The position numbers were made by a program, and so were the translations under genes. A model generated the notes under the pieces. The model did no database searches. It was not told where the DNA came from and saw nothing but the letters and a program-made list of their open reading frames with translations. This document shows positions 12,158 through 24,748 of a DNA stretch of 64,000 nucleotides, one piece after another. The stretch's first letter is position 1. Every line of letters starts with the position of its first letter. Origin of the DNA: Oceanibaculum indicum P24 (GTDB lineage: Bacteria > Pseudomonadota > Alphaproteobacteria > Oceanibaculales > Oceanibaculaceae); assembly GCF_000299935.1 (NCBI RefSeq), contig NZ_AMRL01000001.1:248001-312000 (forward strand). Direction: 5' to 3'.

Positions 12158-14314
12158 TCACGCGGTCTCCCGCACCATCGGCAGACGCTCCGGCCGGCCA
12201 ACGCCCAGCCGGGCCATCGCATTGGCAACGGCGGGGCCGATGGGCGGCACGCCTGGCTCACCGACACCCGTGGGTGCCTCTGTCGAGGGCACGATGACGA
12301 CCTCGATTTCCGGCATCTCATCGATGCGCAGCGAACGGTAGGTATCGAAGTTGCGCTGCACCGGCTGGCCGCCATCCAGGGCCACCTCGGCATAGAGCAC
12401 ATGGCCCAGGCCATAGCCGATGCCGCCTTCGATCTGCGCCCGGATCACGTCCGGATTAACGGCGACGCCGCAATCGATGGCGCACCAGACCTTGTGCACC
12501 CTCGGCCCGTTATCGCCCATCGAGACCTCGGCGATCTGCGCGACATAGCTGCCGAAGCTCTCGACCGCCGCCACACCGCGCGCCCGTCCTTCCGCCGGAC
12601 GGCTGCCCGACCAGTCGGCAAGCTTCGCGACTTCCCGCAGCGCACCGGCCAGACGCGGCTTGTCCGCCATCAGCGCCAGACGGCCCTCGACCGGGTCCTG
12701 TCCGGTCTCCTCCAGCAACCGGTCGATGAAGCATTCGACCGCATAGCCGGTATGGGTATGGCCGACCGAACGCCACCAGAGCACAGGCACCGGGGATACC
12801 ACCGTGTGCAGGTCACAGCGGAAATTGGCGACCTTGTAGGGCAGTTCCCGCGCGCCTTCGACGGACGTGATATCGACGCCGTCACGCACCAGCATCTCCT
12901 CAAGCGCCGTGCCGCTCGCCAGCGACTGGCCGACGACGGTGTTACTCCAGCCGGTGATCCGGCCGTCCCTGATCGCGCCTTTCATGCGGTGCACGAAGAT
13001 GGAGCGGTAATAGCCGCCGGTGATGTCGTCCTCGCGGCTCCAGACCAGCTTCACCGGGCGGTTCGGGCCGATGGCCTTCGCCGCTTCTGCCAGTTCCACA
13101 GCGAACTCGGACTTACCCTGCGCTCGCCGGCCGAAGCTGCCGCCGCTGAGCAGCGTCTCCACCGTCACCCTGCCGGGCTCCAGCCCCAGCACCTTGGCGA
13201 TGCCCATATGGTCCAGCGTCTGCAGCTGGCTGCCGAAGCGGGCGCGGGCCGTCTGCCCGTCCCATTCCAGATAGCCGTCCAGAGGCTCCATCGGCGCGTG
13301 GGCGAGGTAGGGGAAGATATATTCCGCCTCAACGATCTTCGCGCCATCGCCAAAGGCCGCATCAGCATCGCCATGCGCCCCGGCGACCACGCCCGGCTTT
13401 TTGGCGAGTGCCCGGTATTCCTCGATCATCGCCTCGCTGCTGCGCGTCTCGGCGGTGCTGTCGTCCCACTCGACGGACAGTGCTTCGCGCCCCTTCAGCG
13501 CCGGCCACATGCCCTCGGCATAGACCGCGACGCCGGAGGACAGCTGCTTCACATCGACGACACCGCGCACCTTGCGGGCCGCACTGTCATCGAACCGCAC
13601 CAGCTTCGCACCGAAGCGCGGCGGCCGGGCGACCACCACGGTCAGCATGCCGGGCGTCTGGATGTCGATGGTGTATTCCGCTGTGCCGTTCACCTTGGCC
13701 GCGGTGTCCAGCTTGCGCAGCGCCTGCCCTTCCCTGCCGATCAGCTTGAAGGCAGACGGGTCTTTCAGCGCCACCTTCTCCGGCACCGGCAGGCCGGATG
13801 CGGCCTCGGCGAACTCACCGAACCGGCCGGTCTTGCCCGACGGATGGCGCAGCTGGCCGCGCTCGATGGTGATCTCGCCGGCTGGCACCTTCCAGCGCGC
13901 CGCAGCCGCCTGCACCAGCAAGGCGCGGGCCGTGGCGCCTGCCTGGCGCATCTGCATGTAGGAATTGGCGATGGCGGTAGAGCCGCCGGTGCCCTGCACG
14001 CCGAAGGCCAGGTTCTTGTAAAGCTCGACATTGGCAGGCGCATGCTCGGCACGCATCTGCGCCCAGTCGGCGTCCATCTCCTCGGCGACCAGGGTGCTGA
14101 GGCCGGTGAACGGCCCCTGGCCGAACTCGATATGCTTCACCAGCACGGTCACGGTGTCGTCAGCGCCGACCCGCACGAAGGCGTTCGGCGCGAAAGTGCC
14201 GCCCTTTGCCGGGGTGGCGGCCCGTGCCTTACCGCCCAGCGGCAATTGCAGGGCGAGGGTGAGGCCGACAGCGCCTTGCAGCACGGCACGGCGGGAAACG
14301 CGCATAGCAGTCAT
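12158..14314 (-). CDS. Isoquinoline 1-oxidoreductase-type molybdenum subunit (copy 1)
   Basis: This 718-residue protein belongs to the xanthine-dehydrogenase superfamily, IorB branch: a large subunit carrying molybdopterin cytosine dinucleotide. It begins with a twin-arginine signal ([20 protein letters not shown]), so it is exported folded to the periplasm. Two duplicated MoCo-binding halves follow, with [20 protein letters not shown] near the middle and the C-terminal [20 protein letters not shown] carrying the expected active-site Glu. It hydroxylates N-heterocycles or oxidises aldehydes, with electrons passing to its 2Fe-2S partner. That partner gene lies 3 bases upstream. No cytochrome or MoCo chaperone gene is adjacent. 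True substrate unknown. Confidence 0.9.
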
Positions 14315-14317
14315 GGA

Positions 14318-14779
14318 TCAGCCCTCCAGAGAACGGGCGGCGTCGTGGATCGCGGCCCGGATGCGGACATAGGTGGCGCAGCGGCACAGATTGCCGTTCA
14401 TTGCCGCGTCGATATCCGCGTCGGTCGGCTTGCGGTTCTCTGTCAGCAGGGCGACGGCGCTCATCACCTGGCCGGACTGGCAATAACCGCACTGCGGCAC
14501 GTCATGCGCGGTCCAGGCGGCCTGAACGGCGCGCGCCTCGGGGCTGGTGATCGCCTCGATGGTGGTCACCTCGCTGTCGGCGAGGGCCGAGACCGGGAAG
14601 ACGCAGGAACGCTGCGCCACGCCATCCACGAAGACGGTGCAGGCGCCGCACTGCGCCATGCCGCAGCCGAATTTGGTGCCGGTCAGGCCCAGCGTGTCGC
14701 GCAGGACCCAGAGCAAGGGGGTATCGTCATCGACATCGACGCTGTGCGTCTGGCCGTTGACCTTGAGCGTGGTGGACAT
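14318..14779 (-). CDS. Isoquinoline 1-oxidoreductase-type 2Fe-2S subunit (copy 1)
   Basis: This 153-residue protein carries two 2Fe-2S centres. The plant-ferredoxin type is [18 protein letters not shown] with a later Cys (QRSC). The second, helical one has [10 protein letters not shown] and [11 protein letters not shown]. It passes electrons from the molybdenum subunit encoded 3 bases downstream to an outside acceptor. I start it at ATG 14779 ([10 protein letters not shown]), which has GAGG upstream and matches the family start; an in-frame ATG at 14854 would add 25 unmatched residues. It lacks its own signal peptide and should be co-exported with the Tat-signal partner. Confidence 0.92.
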
Positions 14780-14894: not shown

Positions 14895-14966
14895 GGTGTC
14901 CAATCTTTTGTCGGACACCATATACTAATTAGACTCGATGGTCTTATCGAGTATAGTCCGTCTAAA
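14895..14966. promoter_or_regulatory. Operator region with three inverted repeats between ior copy 1 and tetR
   Basis: Three perfect inverted repeats crowd this divergent promoter region: GGTGTCC/GGACACC (14895-14901 and 14913-14919), ACTCGAT/ATCGAGT (14933-14939 and 14946-14952), and TTAGAC/GTCTAA (14929-14934 and 14959-14964), the last enclosing the second. A minus-strand TTGACA lies at 14981-14976, with TATACT at 14955-14950 (a long 20-bp spacer), as a possible promoter for the ior genes. The TetR protein at 14990 is the likely ligand of at least one repeat. Confidence 0.55.
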
Positions 14967-14989: not shown

Positions 14990-15598
14990 ATGCGTCCAAT
15001 GAATGAAATTTGCGAGACAAGTGCGCTGACCAAGATGGAGCAGGTCGCCGATGCGGCGCGCCGGCTGTTCGCCCGCTATGGCTACAAGCGCACCTCGATG
15101 GATGATATTGCGCGTGAGGCCGGCGTTGCCAAGGCCACGCTCTATCTGCATTTCAAGGGCAAGGACGATGTGTTCCGCACGATGATGCGGCGCACTGCCG
15201 ATCTGGTGCTGACGCGCTGCGACGCGGCGCTGACCAGCGGCGCCCCCTTCGCCGAACGTCTGGAAGGCGTGCTGGGTGCCTATTACGGCACCTGGATCGA
15301 CCTGTTCGGCGACCCGGCCCATTGGGGCGAGCTGGTGCTGGTGAAGACGCAGATCGCCATGGACCAGGCGAAGGAGCTGGAAGGCCTGTATATCGACCGG
15401 TTCCGGGGCTTCCTGGCCAAGGCGGAAGCTGATGGCGAGATCGACCTGTCGCGCGCCGGCACCGATGCCGACCAGCTCTGCCAGACGCTGATGCAGGCGG
15501 CCCTGGGCGCCAAGAGCGGTACCCCGCCGACGCAGGAGGAATTCCGCCAGCGGATGCGCAACATCGCCCGGCTGGCCGCCGCCGCCCTGACGCGCTGA
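14990..15598 (+). CDS. TetR-family transcriptional regulator
   Basis: This 202-residue protein has a clear TetR HTH at about residues 17-62 (ADAARRLFARYGYKRTSMDD, then IAREAGVAKATLYLHFKGKD) and a TetR C-terminal domain. It is divergent from the ior copy 1 genes and lies 36 bases before the MpaB-sulfotransferase-catalase-like trio on its own strand. It may control either or both. The ATG at 14990 has no clear shine-dalgarno sequence, and ATG 14999 is an alternative. Ligand unknown. Confidence 0.9.
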   Translation: MRPMNEICETSALTKMEQVADAARRLFARYGYKRTSMDDIAREAGVAKATLYLHFKGKDDVFRTMMRRTADLVLTRCDAALTSGAPFAERLEGVLGAYYGTWIDLFGDPAHWGELVLVKTQIAMDQAKELEGLYIDRFRGFLAKAEADGEIDLSRAGTDADQLCQTLMQAALGAKSGTPPTQEEFRQRMRNIARLAAAALTR

Positions 15599-15634: not shown

Positions 15635-16807
15635 ATGGATATGCCGCACGACTATCGCGAAGGCCATGCCGCCGCGGTCCTGAAGAACCCGGTTCTCGCC
15701 GACCGCTACGTCGCGCACACCATGCTGGGCGACCCGCTGGCCGACGCGGCGGTGGCGGAATTGTCCCGCCATGCGCCGCAGCTGGCACAGGAATGGGTGC
15801 GCCTCGGCATGGATGAGGGGGCCGCCCGGCTGGCGGAGGCGCCGCCGGTGGTGCGCGATTTCTTCATAGAATCCGAGAAAGTGCCGGACTGGTTCGACGA
15901 GGCCGCGACGCTGCCGGGCTGCCGGGCCTTCTACCGCAATTCCGAGATGTTCGTCGGCGCCTTCGTCGCCGCCGTGCTGATCGAGGGGTTCTCGACCCTT
16001 ATCAGCCGGTCCTTCAGCATCACCGGTCGCATGGTCGATCAGGGTGTGCGGCGGCTGAAGCAGAACAACCGGCAACTGGTCGAAATCTTCCTGCCCGGCG
16101 GGCTTGACCGCTATGGCGAAGGCTGGAAACTGTCGGTCCGTATCCGCCTTGTCCATGCCCGCATCCGCCAGCTTCTCGCCCAGTCGGACGAGTGGGAATC
16201 GGCGGCCTGGGGTACGCCGCTCAGCTCCGCCCATATCGCGTTTGCGACGGCGGCCTTTTCGGGCCTGCTGCTGAAGCGCGCGCGCATGCTGGGCGTCGAG
16301 CTGTCGGCGGAGGAGCGCGACGCCTTCATGACGATCTGGCGCTATGCCGGTCATCTGATGGGGGTCGATCCCGCCCTGCAATGCGCAACCGAGGAAGAGG
16401 CGCTGACGCTGTACGAGATCGGGGCGATGTGCGAACCGCCGATCAGCCTCGACTCCATCCTGCTGGCGAACGGGCTGATCAATTCCGCGCCGCTGGTGGC
16501 CGGCATAGAGGAGCCGGCGGCGCGGCGGCGCCTGGCCCGGCGCATCTATCGCGTGTCGCGGGCGATGATCGGCGACGAGATGGCGGACGCACTGCGCTAC
16601 CCCGCCCTCAACACGACAGGGACGCTGCTGCTGTTCCGCCTGAAGGGCCGGGCCGAACGCCTGATGCACCGCTATTTCCCGAAGCTGGCGCAGCACCGCC
16701 AGCTCAGCCAGTTCCAGACCATGCTGAACGTGTCGCACTATGCCGATCAGGGTATCGGCTACCGGCTGCCCGGCCATGTGCATGCGGAAAAGGACGGTAC
16801 GATATGA
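15635..16807 (+). CDS. MpaB-type oxygenase (DUF2236 family)
   Basis: This 390-residue protein resembles the MpaB/latex-clearing-protein family (DUF2236), whose characterised members are b-type haem oxygenases that cleave prenyl chains or rubber. Seen here: SRSFSITGRMVDQGVRRLKQ at about residues 124-143, and the conserved RIRLVHARIR at 169-178, where His174 is the candidate haem ligand by analogy with Lcp. Acidic and aromatic segments (VPDWFDEA, FYRNSEMFVGAFVAAVLIEG) also fit. No signal peptide is evident. It overlaps the sulfotransferase gene by ATGA, so the two are translationally coupled. The start could also be the ATG two codons later. The substrate is unknown. Confidence 0.82.
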   Translation: MDMPHDYREGHAAAVLKNPVLADRYVAHTMLGDPLADAAVAELSRHAPQLAQEWVRLGMDEGAARLAEAPPVVRDFFIESEKVPDWFDEAATLPGCRAFYRNSEMFVGAFVAAVLIEGFSTLISRSFSITGRMVDQGVRRLKQNNRQLVEIFLPGGLDRYGEGWKLSVRIRLVHARIRQLLAQSDEWESAAWGTPLSSAHIAFATAAFSGLLLKRARMLGVELSAEERDAFMTIWRYAGHLMGVDPALQCATEEEALTLYEIGAMCEPPISLDSILLANGLINSAPLVAGIEEPAARRRLARRIYRVSRAMIGDEMADALRYPALNTTGTLLLFRLKGRAERLMHRYFPKLAQHRQLSQFQTMLNVSHYADQGIGYRLPGHVHAEKDGTI

Positions 16808-17844
16808 AACCCAACATTATTCCCCCCGTCCTGATCCTGAGTACCGGGCGCTGCGGCTCCACCATGGTGTCGGAGATGCTGAACCGGCATCCCGATGTGC
16901 TGAGCCTGTCGGAATTCTTCGTGCCGCTGGGGCAGAACGGCTTTGCCTGGGAAAATCCGACGGGCGAACGGATGTGGCAGACGCTGAGCCAGCAATCGCC
17001 ATCGCTGCACGCCATGCTGAAGGACGGGCTTGTCGTCGATGAGGGACTGTATCCGCATGACGACCCCAATTCCCGTTTCTCGGCGCACGACATGCCGCCG
17101 GTGATAGCAACCACGCTGCCGCACCTGACGCCCGACTATGAGGCACTGTATGACGCGCTGGAGCGCTTCGTGCGGCCGCTGCCGAAAGCGCCGCTGGCGG
17201 ACCAGTACAGGGCGCTGTTCGGCTATCTGATGGACCGGTTCGGCCGGCGGGTCTGGGTCGAGCGTTCCGGCGGATCGCTGATGCTGGCGGCCAAGCTGCT
17301 GAGGCTGTTCCCCGAGGCCCGGGTGGTGCATGTCTTCCGGGACGGGCGTGATACCGCCATCTCCATGAGCCGGCATCACAATTTCCGCGTGCTGCTGGCG
17401 ATCCACAAGAAATGCCGGCGGCTGGGTCTCGACCTGCGGCGCGACTTCCTGAAGGATCGCGGCAGCCCTGCCGGCATCTGGCTGGAGAAGCTGTTCTTCA
17501 GCGTCGTCGATACCGGCAAGCTGCTGCGCGAGGAGCCGGAGCTGGCGGAGTTCGGCGCGCTGTGGAGCGATATGATCCTGACCGGCGAGAAGATGCTAGG
17601 CCATCTGCCGCCCGAACGGCTGCTCAACCTGCGGTTCGAGGATGTGCAGCAGGCGCCGCGCGAGAAGCTGTCGGAGCTGATCCGCTTCATCGATCCGTCC
17701 CTGCACAACGAGGCGTGGCTGGAAGAGACGGCGGCGATGCTGCGCCCGACCCGCGCGAAATACACCGACCTGCCCGCCCCGCAACAGGCCGCGCTCACCC
17801 GTGCCTGTGCACCGGGGCTCAGGCATCTGGGTTATGCGGCATGA
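16804..17844 (+). CDS. Sulfotransferase family protein
   Basis: This 346-residue protein has the PAPS-binding P-loop-like motif LSTGRCGSTMVSEMLNRHP (STGRCGST at residues 13-20) near the N-terminus. The 3'-phosphate-binding segment VVHVFRDGRDTAISMSRHH lies at about residues 173-191. Members transfer sulfate from PAPS to hydroxyl or amino groups of carbohydrates, lipids or small molecules in the cytosol or at the membrane. It starts inside the stop of the MpaB gene and its own stop overlaps the next start (ATGA both times), so the three proteins are probably made together. The acceptor substrate is not predictable from sequence. Confidence 0.85.
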   Translation: MKPNIIPPVLILSTGRCGSTMVSEMLNRHPDVLSLSEFFVPLGQNGFAWENPTGERMWQTLSQQSPSLHAMLKDGLVVDEGLYPHDDPNSRFSAHDMPPVIATTLPHLTPDYEALYDALERFVRPLPKAPLADQYRALFGYLMDRFGRRVWVERSGGSLMLAAKLLRLFPEARVVHVFRDGRDTAISMSRHHNFRVLLAIHKKCRRLGLDLRRDFLKDRGSPAGIWLEKLFFSVVDTGKLLREEPELAEFGALWSDMILTGEKMLGHLPPERLLNLRFEDVQQAPREKLSELIRFIDPSLHNEAWLEETAAMLRPTRAKYTDLPAPQQAALTRACAPGLRHLGYAA

Positions 17845-18794
17845 ATGGGGGCTGCCCCCTGCACGGCATAGATCTGGAAGCTGTCCTGCGGATCGCCGCC
17901 CGCACCTTCCAGCACCCACGGCCGGACGGCACCCTGCCCCGGCAGTTTCACGAAAAGACCCACGCCTGCCTGTCCGGCACGCTGCGGATCAATCCGCCGG
18001 ATAATCCGGCCCTGCGGCACGGCCTGTTCGCTCAGGCCGGTCGCTATCCCGCCACGATCCGTTTTTCCAGTTCCTTCTTCGCCGACGACGAGGTGCCGGA
18101 CGGGCGTGGCATGGCCATCCGGCTGACCGGCGTGGACGGCGCCCCCGGCGGGCAGCAGGATTTCATCCTCATCAGCCAGGCGACCGCCCCGTTCCGCCAC
18201 TCGGCCGATGCCGCCGCCCTGTTCGCCGCGCTGGATGGCGTGCCCCGGATGACGCCGTTCAGCCTGTTGTCGCGCAGCTATATCCTGCCGGGCTTCGATC
18301 CCCGCCGCCTCCGCTGGCATTATCTGCAGCTGCTGTTCTCGACCGGTTTCACCCATGCCCGCAGACGCGGGCTGCACCGGCTTGCCTATTACAGCATCAC
18401 CCCCTACCGGCTGGGGGAGAGTGCGGCGAAATATATCTGCCGCCCGGATGCTGGTGCCTGGGACGGCCTGCGCGGCTACCGGCGGAGTTTCACCGAAAGG
18501 TTGCAGGCGGCCCTCGACCGGGGTGGCTTCGGTTTCGATTTCTGCCTGCAGCCCCGCGCGTCCGAAAGCGACCCCATCGACGATGCGGGTGTGACCTGGA
18601 AGGGGCCTGAGTTCCCCGTCGGTCGGCTGGAAATCCCGGCGCAGGATGTGAGCGCGGGCCTCACGCTTTCAGACGGGCTGGCCTTCAATCCCTGGAACTG
18701 CCTGCCCGACCATGAACCGCTGGGGTCGCTGAACCTTCTGCGGCGGCATGCCTACGCGGAATCGGCGAAGCGGCGGAACGCCAACACGCCTTAA
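17841..18794 (+). CDS. Short catalase-like haem protein
   Basis: This 317-residue protein looks like a reduced catalase fold of the SrpA/allene-oxide-synthase-like kind. Seen: FHEKTHACLSGTLRINP, with His41 as candidate distal His; RYPATIRFSSSFF (RFSS at 74-77); GRGMAIRLTGVDG; QQDFILISQA; and near the C-terminus LRRHAYAESAKRRNANTP, where Tyr305 in an R-x3-Y-x5-R setting is the candidate proximal haem ligand. Typical catalases are about 480 residues or longer, so this is a short form. Relatives act as peroxidases or on fatty-acid hydroperoxides; which applies here is open. I chose ATG 17841 because it overlaps the sulfotransferase stop as ATGA. Confidence 0.78.
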   Translation: MNGGCPLHGIDLEAVLRIAARTFQHPRPDGTLPRQFHEKTHACLSGTLRINPPDNPALRHGLFAQAGRYPATIRFSSSFFADDEVPDGRGMAIRLTGVDGAPGGQQDFILISQATAPFRHSADAAALFAALDGVPRMTPFSLLSRSYILPGFDPRRLRWHYLQLLFSTGFTHARRRGLHRLAYYSITPYRLGESAAKYICRPDAGAWDGLRGYRRSFTERLQAALDRGGFGFDFCLQPRASESDPIDDAGVTWKGPEFPVGRLEIPAQDVSAGLTLSDGLAFNPWNCLPDHEPLGSLNLLRRHAYAESAKRRNANTP

Positions 18795-22102: not shown

Positions 22103-22555
22103 ATGATCAGCCTGAGCATCAACAACCAGCGCGTTGACGTAGAGACCGACCCCGGCACGCCGCTTCTGTGGGTATTGCGGGAGCATCTCGGCCTCGTCGG
22201 GACGCGCTTCGGCTGCGGCGCCGGAATGTGCGGCGCCTGCACGGTCCATATCGATGGCACGGCGTACTTCGCCTGCCAGACCCCGGTGGGCGATGTGGCC
22301 GATGGCCAGGTGGTGACCATCGAGGGGCTGTCGGACCAGGGCGACCATCCGGTTCAGCGCGCCTGGATCGCCGAGCAGGTGCCGCAATGCGGCTACTGCC
22401 AGTCCGGGCAGATCATGCGCGCCGCCGCGCTGCTGGCGCGCAACCCGAAGCCGAGCCGGGAGGAGATTGTCGAGGAAATGTCGGCAAACCTCTGCCGCTG
22501 CGGCACCTATGCGCGCATCGTACGGGCCATCGAACGCGCAGCCGAGGAGGCCTGA
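22103..22555 (+). CDS. Isoquinoline 1-oxidoreductase-type 2Fe-2S subunit (copy 2)
   Basis: This 150-residue protein is a second IorA-type electron-transfer subunit. It has the ferredoxin-like cluster motif [18 protein letters not shown] with a later Cys in FACQ, and the helical cluster motifs [10 protein letters not shown] and [12 protein letters not shown]. It pairs with the molybdenum subunit that starts 3 bases after its stop. Length is normal. It differs clearly from copy 1 in sequence, so the two pairs are old paralogues rather than a recent duplication. Confidence 0.93.
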
Positions 22556-22558
22556 GCC

Positions 22559-24748
22559 ATGATCCTCAAGGACATGAAACCCACCCGCCGCGGCTTCCTG
22601 GCCGGCAGCGGCACCCTCGCCTTCGCATTGCTGGCGGGCGGCGGCGTTTCCGTCATCCGGTCGGCGGCTGCGGAGCCTGCTGCGGCCGGCATCCGGGATA
22701 TCAATGGCTGGGTCGTGATCGAGCCGGACGGGTCGATCCTCATCCGCTTCGGCGCCGCCGAAATGGGACAGGGCGTCAATACCTCGCTGCCGATGATCGT
22801 CGCCGAAGAGCTGGATGCCGGCTGGTCCACCGTGAAGGCGGAGCAGGTCAGCATGGACCCCGATGGCATTTTCGGGAATCCCGGCTTCGGCGGCATCCTG
22901 TTCTCGGCGGGCAGTTCCTCGCTCGAAGGCTATTTCCAGCATCTGCGGCGGGCCGGAGCCACCGCGCGGCGGGTGCTGATCCACAGCGCGGCGGCCCATT
23001 GGGGTGTCTCCCCCGAACAGGTCACGACAGACTCCGGCGTGGTGGTGAACACCGCATCCGGCGCCCGGATGGGCTATGGCGAAGTGGCAGCGTTGCCGGC
23101 AATCGTGACCGAGGTGCCGGCGGTCGCTGATGCCGATCTGAAACCCCGGAAGGACTGGCGCATCATCGGCTCCGATCCGGGCCGGCTCGACATACCGGGC
23201 AAGACCCGGGGGGCCGCAATCTACTCGATCGATATCCGGTTGCCCGGCATGCTCTATGCCGCCCAACTGCAGGCACCGGTCGAAGGCGAAACGCCGGTCA
23301 CCGTCTCGGACCGCGCGGCGCGCGACCTGCCCGGCGTGGTGCAGATCGTCAAACTCGCCAACAGCGTGGCCGTACTCGCGGAACGCTGGGAGACGGCGCT
23401 CGCCGCACGCGATCTGCTGGACGTCAGCTGGAGCGCGAATTCCGAGTTCCGCCAATACAGCAGCGATCGCGAACTGGAGGAGCTTTCCCGGGCGGTGGAC
23501 GACCCGTCGCTGCCCGCCTTCCCATGGGAAAGCCGGGGCGATGCCGTAACGGCGCTGGCGCAGGGCACACGGAAGCATGCCGCGACCTACAGCACCACCC
23601 ATCTCTACCATGCCCAGATGGAGCCGCTGAATGCCGTCGCCTCAGTTGATGCGGATGGCAAGGGCGCGGAAGTCTGGCTGGGAACGCAAAGCCAGACGAT
23701 CTCCATCGGCGTGGCCACCGCCGTCCTGGGGACGACGCCTGACCGTATCCGCTTTCACGCCATGCAGATGGGCGGTGCCTTCGGCCGCCGGACCGTCTTC
23801 GCCCGCGACCTGCTGCGCGATGCGCTGCTGCTGTCGCGCGCGGCGGGACGGCCGGTGAAGCTGATGTGGACCCGGGAGGATGATGTGAAGAATGGCTGGC
23901 TGCGGCCGGCAACGGTCCATCGCCTCGAAGCGACGCTCGACGCCGATGGCACTGTCACGGCAATGCGCCACCGCGTCGCCTCGCCGTCGATCCTGCAATT
24001 CGCCTTTCCGCAACGCTGGAACCCGGAGACCGGTCGCGATGTCCTGGTCATGGAAGGCACCGAGAGTACCGACTACGCGATCCCGGATTTCCGCGCGGAG
24101 CATGTCATCACCCCGCGCCGCTGCCGCGTCTCGGCATGGCGTGGAATCGGCTGGGCCCCGAACTGCTTTGCCCGCGAATGTTTCATCGACGAGCTGGCGG
24201 AACAGGCCGGCAGCGATCCAGTCGCCTTCCGCCGGAAGCTGCTGCGCGACAGCCCGCGCGGCCTGGCGGTACTGGACGCCGTAGTCGCCATGGCCGGCTT
24301 CGGAAAGGCACCGCAGGGGCGCGCCCATGGCCTTTCCTTCGCCGGCTACAAGGAAACAAGGGGTGCCGGCGTCGCGGAAGTATCGGTCGAGAATGGCCGG
24401 TTCCGCGTGCATCGCTTCTGGGCAGCGGTCGATCCGGGCTTCGCCGTGCACCCGGACAATCTGCGGGCACAGGTCGAAGGCGGCATCCTGTTCGGGCTGT
24501 CCTCCCTGATGCGCGAACGCGCAAGCTATACGGATGGCATGATCGACCAGAGCAATTTCTACGATTATGAGCCGATCCGTATCGGCGAGATCCCGAAGAT
24601 CGAGGTGCGGATCGTCGAGTCCGACTCGGCCCCCAGCGGCGCGGGCGAGATCGGCGTCCCGATGACCGGCGCGGCCGTGGCGAATGCCATAAGGCTGCTG
24701 ACCGGCACGGCCCCGCGGCAGATGCCGTTCAACCTGGAACAGTCCTGA
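22559..24748 (+). CDS. Isoquinoline 1-oxidoreductase-type molybdenum subunit (copy 2)
   Basis: This 729-residue IorB-type large subunit has a twin-arginine signal (KPTRRGFLAGSGTLAFALLA). It also has the MoCo-binding segments AEMGQGVNTSLPMIVAEEL and MGGAFGRRTVFARD, and the C-terminal GAGEIGVPMTGAAVANAIRL with the expected Glu. It should hydroxylate N-heteroaromatics or oxidise aldehydes in the periplasm, together with the 2Fe-2S subunit just upstream. The ATG at 22559 follows GAGGAGGCCTGAGCC, and the Tat motif falls at a normal distance. Control is probably by the divergent LysR protein. No cytochrome or maturation gene accompanies it. Confidence 0.9.
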   Translation: MILKDMKPTRRGFLAGSGTLAFALLAGGGVSVIRSAAAEPAAAGIRDINGWVVIEPDGSILIRFGAAEMGQGVNTSLPMIVAEELDAGWSTVKAEQVSMDPDGIFGNPGFGGILFSAGSSSLEGYFQHLRRAGATARRVLIHSAAAHWGVSPEQVTTDSGVVVNTASGARMGYGEVAALPAIVTEVPAVADADLKPRKDWRIIGSDPGRLDIPGKTRGAAIYSIDIRLPGMLYAAQLQAPVEGETPVTVSDRAARDLPGVVQIVKLANSVAVLAERWETALAARDLLDVSWSANSEFRQYSSDRELEELSRAVDDPSLPAFPWESRGDAVTALAQGTRKHAATYSTTHLYHAQMEPLNAVASVDADGKGAEVWLGTQSQTISIGVATAVLGTTPDRIRFHAMQMGGAFGRRTVFARDLLRDALLLSRAAGRPVKLMWTREDDVKNGWLRPATVHRLEATLDADGTVTAMRHRVASPSILQFAFPQRWNPETGRDVLVMEGTESTDYAIPDFRAEHVITPRRCRVSAWRGIGWAPNCFARECFIDELAEQAGSDPVAFRRKLLRDSPRGLAVLDAVVAMAGFGKAPQGRAHGLSFAGYKETRGAGVAEVSVENGRFRVHRFWAAVDPGFAVHPDNLRAQVEGGILFGLSSLMRERASYTDGMIDQSNFYDYEPIRIGEIPKIEVRIVESDSAPSGAGEIGVPMTGAAVANAIRLLTGTAPRQMPFNLEQS

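Follow-up and report, generated by a model that had tools for sequence, protein, structure and literature searches.

We analysed three adjacent genes in a stretch of 64,000 nucleotides (hereafter, the window) from Oceanibaculum indicum P24 (contig NZ_AMRL01000001.1, positions 248,001 to 312,000). They encode a predicted haem oxygenase of the MpaB/Lcp type, a sulfotransferase (ST) of the type that uses 3'-phosphoadenosine-5'-phosphosulfate (PAPS), and a short protein with a catalase fold that we call CatL. The original prediction, made from the sequence alone, had described three genes joined by two ATGA overlaps; both the coordinates and the gene calls were confirmed. In window coordinates, the trio comprises:

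15635-16807, + strand: MpaB/Lcp-type haem oxygenase, 390 aa (PF09995, E 4e-22), with R140 and H174 as predicted haem residues
16804-16807, + strand: ATGA stop/start overlap of MpaB and ST genes, 4 nt; a 4-nt overlap also occurs in homologues
16804-17844, + strand: PAPS-type sulfotransferase, 346 aa (PF13469, E 1e-18), with motifs STGRCGST and RDGRD
17841-17844, + strand: ATGA stop/start overlap of ST and CatL genes, 4 nt, conserved in homologues
17841-18794, + strand: CatL, short catalase-fold protein, 317 aa, assigned by catalase profile matches and a structure model

Using an alignment of the sulfotransferase as query, we scanned about 85,000 GTDB species genomes and obtained 79 loci. The survey was seeded from the sulfotransferase and included related metagenome-assembled genomes (MAGs), and its counts describe this sulfotransferase family rather than all bacteria. 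Because gene callers misplaced some genes in loci of high GC content, adjacency was scored from profile-aligned coordinates rather than from the ends of open reading frames (ORFs). The loci span about ten phyla, among them Pseudomonadota, Verrucomicrobiota, Gemmatimonadota, Nitrospirota, Acidobacteriota, Chloroflexota, Rhodothermota, Tectimicrobiota, Latescibacterota and Binatota. The direct neighbour of the ST gene was MpaB at 44 of the 79 loci, a cytochrome P450 at 13 and CatL at 9, the last group being distributed over Alphaproteobacteria, Gammaproteobacteria and Verrucomicrobiota. Within the class (385 genomes sampled), G275, G380, G261, G036 and G262 carry close relatives of the sulfotransferase (49-64%), all of which directly adjoin an MpaB homologue, and G184 has two sulfotransferase copies with a more distant MpaB nearby. 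These results uphold the expectation that the three genes recur together, with the qualification that the catalase-like gene is present in only a subset.

The junctions of the three genes are also conserved, and their phylogenies largely agree. At eight of the nine CatL-bearing loci examined, the overlap is exactly 4 nt at both the MpaB/ST and the ST/CatL junction; the lone exception is a Verrucomicrobiia genome with gaps of 17 and 10 nt. Tistlia consotensis has the order MpaB-ST-CatL-ST-CatL, in which a 254-nt gap precedes the second ST. The trio sulfotransferases group in a single supported clade (18 rows; 99/95) in which Alphaproteobacteria, Gammaproteobacteria and Verrucomicrobiota are intermingled, which suggests that the cassette spread horizontally. 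Trees of MpaB, ST and CatL have 6, 4 and 4 of 8 splits in common, compared to about 0.2 expected by chance, and the identity matrices of the three proteins correlate at 0.88-0.91. Coincidental adjacency with no joint function might be considered for proteins from different superfamilies, particularly as CatL relatives are found alone, but it is contradicted by recurrence across phyla, conserved overlaps and agreeing trees, and is highly improbable. Since the arrangement is found again in unrelated genomes, it reflects more than chance, and MpaB, ST and CatL almost certainly constitute a conserved unit.

Further evidence comes from Tistrella, in which the CatL gene is not linked to MpaB-ST. Genomes G261 and G036 carry MpaB2-MpaB1-ST together with an intact CatL. 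In G164, MpaB2 is retained and MpaB1-ST is missing from flanks that can still be aligned; in the same genome, CatL (L088, C1:382132-382846) has an internal deletion that removes about 70 codons (approximately 69-138). Because CatL is wrecked where MpaB1-ST has been lost, this co-loss, a single event in one genus, connects CatL with the pair even when the genes lie apart. Together with the conserved linkage, overlaps and agreeing trees, it lends good support to the earlier proposal that the three proteins act in one pathway.

The same data bear on whether CatL has a product of its own or is simply a peroxide-protection accessory to a two-enzyme MpaB-ST pathway. Such an accessory function would fit with the majority of MpaB-ST pairs having no CatL, with a KatG-type catalase-peroxidase preceding one MpaB homologue and with the activation of an MpaB-family preparation by H2O2 (PMC12724181). 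By contrast, the exact 4-nt overlap that couples ST and CatL at eight of nine loci and the decay of the unlinked Tistrella gene point towards a dedicated role, and the position of catalase Asn148 varies in CatL. We therefore consider a purely protective function rather unlikely.

The first protein of the trio matches PF09995 (MPAB_Lcp_cat) with 79.8 bits against a cut-off of 23. Its structure model (pLDDT, a per-residue confidence score, of 88) resembles the rubber oxygenase LCP (Z 30.4) and t-anethole oxygenase (Z 18.4), and LCP was the sole match when the PDB was searched with an MpaB profile. R140 and H174 are invariant in 19 sequences and align with R164 and H198, the haem residues of Lcp (PMC6311187). 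The R164/T168/H198 triad of Lcp is incomplete in MpaB, Asn144 occupying the position of T168 and being nearly invariant in the MpaB group. By inspection, the N-terminus of MpaB (MDMPHDYREGHAAAVL) has neither a twin Arg nor a hydrophobic stretch, and hence no recognisable twin-arginine translocation (Tat) export signal.

The sulfotransferase scored 68.7 bits against PF13469 (cut-off 27) and, as the original prediction had noted, keeps both PAPS-binding motifs, STGRCGST and RDGRD, most positions of which are invariant across eight homologues. The genome of the window encodes the adenosine 5'-phosphosulfate (APS) kinase gene apsK. At the loci of relatives, tblastn found CysD in 10 and CysNC matches in 14 (several partial), with two loci identified by NCBIfam, and CysQ, which removes 3'-phosphoadenosine 5'-phosphate (PAP), adjoins the trio in Thalassobaculum and G380. 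From its motifs and from the CysD, CysNC and CysQ neighbours of its relatives, the enzyme is predicted to transfer sulfate from PAPS. The proposed sulfation is thus supported, and the product of the cassette is probably sulfated. At several ST loci P450s replace or accompany MpaB, and in a Gemmatimonadetes MAG a cytochrome P450 (19-411) and a member of this sulfotransferase family are joined in a single 799-aa ORF (L131:8624-11020).

CatL had no Pfam or NCBIfam matches, and a PDB search by sequence alone gave only a weak match (E 0.32). A profile search matched catalases and the 33-kDa protein of Mycobacterium avium paratuberculosis (MAP), and the structure model (pLDDT 83) gave a Foldseek E of 3.5e-15. 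Both approaches support the shortened catalase fold that had been proposed. The model scored Z 25.0 against coral allene oxide synthase (AOS), 24.4 against the MAP 33-kDa protein and 23-24 against true catalases, values that differ by about 1-2 Z, too little to favour any of the three. Residues R34, H37, R74, R301, Y305 and R312 are invariant. The motif R34-x-x-H37 shows no variation in 19 relatives, with H37 aligned to the distal His of catalase, and R301-x-x-x-Y305 is likewise invariant, Y305, the C-terminal Tyr singled out in the original prediction, being the proximal Tyr. The distal residue had been predicted to be His41; this candidate was rejected, as the position is Tyr in the G275 trio, is not His in Methylovulum, and His41 is absent in two homologues besides G275. 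The Args that would hold the haem propionates presumably correspond to those of catalase. The CatL sequence thus contains the residues expected of a haem pocket. The position of catalase Asn148 is Ser112 in the window protein; the remaining trio members have Asn, Ser or Asp there. With Ser at this distal position, only 317 aa in place of the full length and no Pfam catalase match, CatL does not qualify as a monofunctional catalase.

The resemblance to AOS raises the alternative that the MpaB-type enzyme converts an unsaturated fatty acid into a hydroperoxide by oxygenation, that CatL is an AOS or hydroperoxide lyase (HPL), and that the resulting oxylipin is sulfated. Coral AOS is among the best structural matches of CatL, AOS and HPL enzymes with a catalase fold are already known (PMC5617202), and CatL relatives on plasmids adjoin 'peroxidase family' genes. 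However, AOS, the MAP protein and true catalases score almost alike, no fatty-acid genes were identified at the trio loci examined and, in the papers that we consulted, PF09995 enzymes with described reactions cleave C=C bonds rather than form fatty-acid hydroperoxides. This route is improbable.

Catalase-fold relatives of CatL also occur in other settings. Those on Methylobacterium and Paracoccus plasmids (L006:4422-6990 and L007:5989-8573) adjoin genes annotated 'peroxidase family', possibly encoding a hydroperoxide-forming partner. We considered plasmid catalase relatives as relatives of the trio and rejected them, none of the five regions examined having MpaB and sulfotransferase annotated. 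On Rhizobium pRlvC (L009:4848-7862), a catalase-like region lies inside an ORF annotated as a LodA/GoxA-type cysteine tryptophylquinone (CTQ) oxidase, and the long ORFs L098, L100 and L101 also match the C-terminal half of CatL.

We propose that the trio is a tailoring cassette, co-translated and spread by horizontal transfer, that would oxidise and then sulfate a lipid, probably an isoprenoid; as a whole, this proposal may equally well prove right or wrong. Judging by family and fold, MpaB, as a b-haem enzyme, would use O2 against a C=C bond in an unsaturated chain, probably an isoprenoid of squalene/hopanoid or polyprenyl type, and its product would be a carbonyl or another oxygenated compound. 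CatL, as a second haem enzyme, would turn over a peroxide linked to this step, either a lipid hydroperoxide, as for coral AOS and HPL, or H2O2. The sulfotransferase, which has the necessary motifs, would then pass sulfate from PAPS to a hydroxyl on the substrate or product. Linkage, overlaps, gene structure, folds, co-loss and the residues for haem and PAPS come from the analyses described above; substrate, step order, product and the role of CatL are given here as we infer them.

The lipid or prenyl substrate put forward in the original prediction gained indirect support from the Lcp-type fold and from two kinds of neighbouring gene. In Thalassobaculaceae (L107, L121 and G380), the squalene genes hpnC-hpnD-hpnE lie directly downstream of the trio, and in L107 the CatL/hpnC junction is itself an ATGA overlap; an independent MpaB-ST locus, L129, has hpnC and hpnD nearby on the opposite strand. 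In G280, G357, G078, G364 and G366, MpaB homologues without ST are followed by MMPL/RND transporters (identified by NCBIfam or Pfam; L073:8111-10528, L072:3828-6248, L078:8644-10974, L081:4162-6489 and L080:4647-7094) with weak similarity to HpnN, and all three of these transporters scanned with Pfam (L073, L078, L080) contain a sterol-sensing domain. An isoprenoid lipid is consequently a plausible substrate, which we assign tentatively. G187 has a gene of similar position and size to these transporters, known by place and size alone, and in G364 a KatG-type catalase-peroxidase is encoded directly upstream of the MpaB homologue (L076:4072-7858).

Several points weigh against the proposal of an oxidised, sulfated isoprenoid. 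The hpnCDE linkage is limited to one family plus the single independent locus, and HpnD-family matches occur in 72% of the 385 sampled genomes, such that the presence of hpnD by itself is uninformative about squalene. Cleavage of C=C yields carbonyls whereas a sulfotransferase usually needs a hydroxyl; the substrate would therefore have to bear a hydroxyl already or another enzyme to supply one. Because Asn144 replaces T168 of Lcp, the chemistry of MpaB may differ from that of Lcp. CatL is absent from most MpaB-ST pairs, and the core reaction hence does not depend on it. Finally, substrate and activity are assigned from indirect evidence.

The genes that flank the trio in the window bear on a further alternative. 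As the original prediction had described, a TetR gene lies 36 bases before the trio and molybdenum hydroxylase genes are divergent from it:

14990-15598, + strand: TetR-family regulator (PF00440, E 5e-19), ending 36 bases before the MpaB gene
14318-14779, - strand (ORF start possibly up to 14854): 2Fe-2S subunit of a molybdenum hydroxylase (PF01799, E 3e-28)
12158-14314, - strand: molybdopterin-binding subunit of the same enzyme (PF02738, E 6e-29; PF20256, E 8e-27)
14921-14964: inverted repeat with core ACTCGAT-n6-ATCGAGT in the divergent promoter region, a candidate TetR site that overlaps a sigma-70-like match
14895-14919: further inverted repeat in the divergent promoter region, a candidate TetR site

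Within our proposal, this molybdenum hydroxylase is a possible aldehyde-oxidising partner of the trio, and in the window genome may act like OxiAB beside lcp in rubber-degrading Streptomyces. The same genes could instead belong to a catabolic or detoxifying cassette, in which the substrate that TetR senses and MpaB cleaves is an alkene or isoprenoid from the environment, the aldehyde is oxidised by the molybdenum hydroxylase, CatL clears peroxide and ST conjugates the product for export. The arrangement at the window does recall lcp/oxiAB clusters, molybdenum hydroxylases also adjoin the trio in L111, L112 and Thalassobaculum/G380, and the trio is accessory in its genus, being present in one of four species. 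Against this, no TetR gene was found at the other loci searched, sulfation is expensive for catabolism, and the neighbouring PAPS-synthesis and squalene-synthesis genes suggest biosynthesis. Nor are the molybdenum hydroxylases of different trio loci orthologues, an assignment that we rejected, as they are 33-34% alike, no more than the two paralogues of the window; we therefore treat them as possible partners only. A catabolic function is unlikely.

Compared with known systems, the proposed biosynthetic cassette shares parts with several, and MpaB, Lcp and CYP128-Stf3 provide the precedents for its suggested mechanism. Lcp clusters with OxiAB and TetR in Streptomyces (PMC9108482), and like the window MpaB has a PF09995 fold (Z 30.4), a haem Arg and His, and molybdenum hydroxylase and TetR neighbours; it differs in that the window protein lacks a Tat motif or hydrophobic N-terminus and has Asn144 for T168, and the portions of the Lcp reports that we consulted mention no sulfotransferase or catalase-like gene. 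MpaB cleaves a farnesyl chain in mycophenolic acid biosynthesis (PMC12724181). MpaB and MpaB', the bacterial alkene-cleaving Nro1 and, by fold, t-anethole oxygenase resemble the window enzyme in family or fold and in oxidative attack on C=C; fungal MpaB is bound to the endoplasmic reticulum and Nro1 to membranes, and the sections of these sources that we consulted mention no sulfotransferase partner. CYP128-Stf3 makes sulfomenaquinone in Mycobacterium tuberculosis (PMC7404182). In this CYP128A1-Stf3 pair, too, an oxygenase is matched with a sulfotransferase and a prenyl lipid is oxidised then sulfated, and P450s flank several homologues, one of them being fused to the sulfotransferase. Its oxygenase is a P450, whereas that of the window cassette belongs to PF09995 (P450s being found only at other loci), and no catalase-fold partner is described for it. 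The MAP 33-kDa protein (3e4w/3e4y) and coral AOS (1u5u, 3dy5) have a short catalase core, distal His and proximal Tyr like those of CatL (Z 24-25), but CatL has no lipoxygenase fusion, varies at the Asn148 position and shares its operon with oxygenase and sulfotransferase genes.

None of the three proteins is new at the level of superfamily, and oxygenase-sulfotransferase pairs have precedents. In the open-access literature searched, however, we found no description of such a pair with a PF09995 oxygenase and a catalase-fold partner, in keeping with the original prediction. Conceivably, the cassette could make an undescribed class of bacterial lipids, oxidised and sulfated isoprenoids of squalene/hopanoid or polyprenyl origin, that is widespread across about ten phyla and extends to sponge-associated lineages; CatL would then be a new catalase-fold enzyme that converts hydroperoxides. 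We consider this extension doubtful. If our main proposal is right, MpaB/Lcp haem oxygenases, the bacterial members of which are mostly uncharacterised, would be linked to sulfated-lipid biosynthesis, and a catalase-fold enzyme would be placed in a new setting. A defined operon would also be available for product searches in Thalassobaculum litoreum, Tistlia consotensis and Methylovulum psychrotolerans, and an MpaB or P450 gene adjoining this sulfotransferase family would let genomes predict sulfated products.

The GC content of the trio matches its surroundings, and composition therefore gives no sign of recent transfer. Rfam and tRNA scans of the 64-kb window returned no matches. A second molybdenum hydroxylase pair (22103-24748; Fe-S subunit of 150 aa, molybdenum cofactor subunit of 729 aa) follows the trio at a distance of about 3.3 kb, and its large subunit is 35% like that of the first pair.

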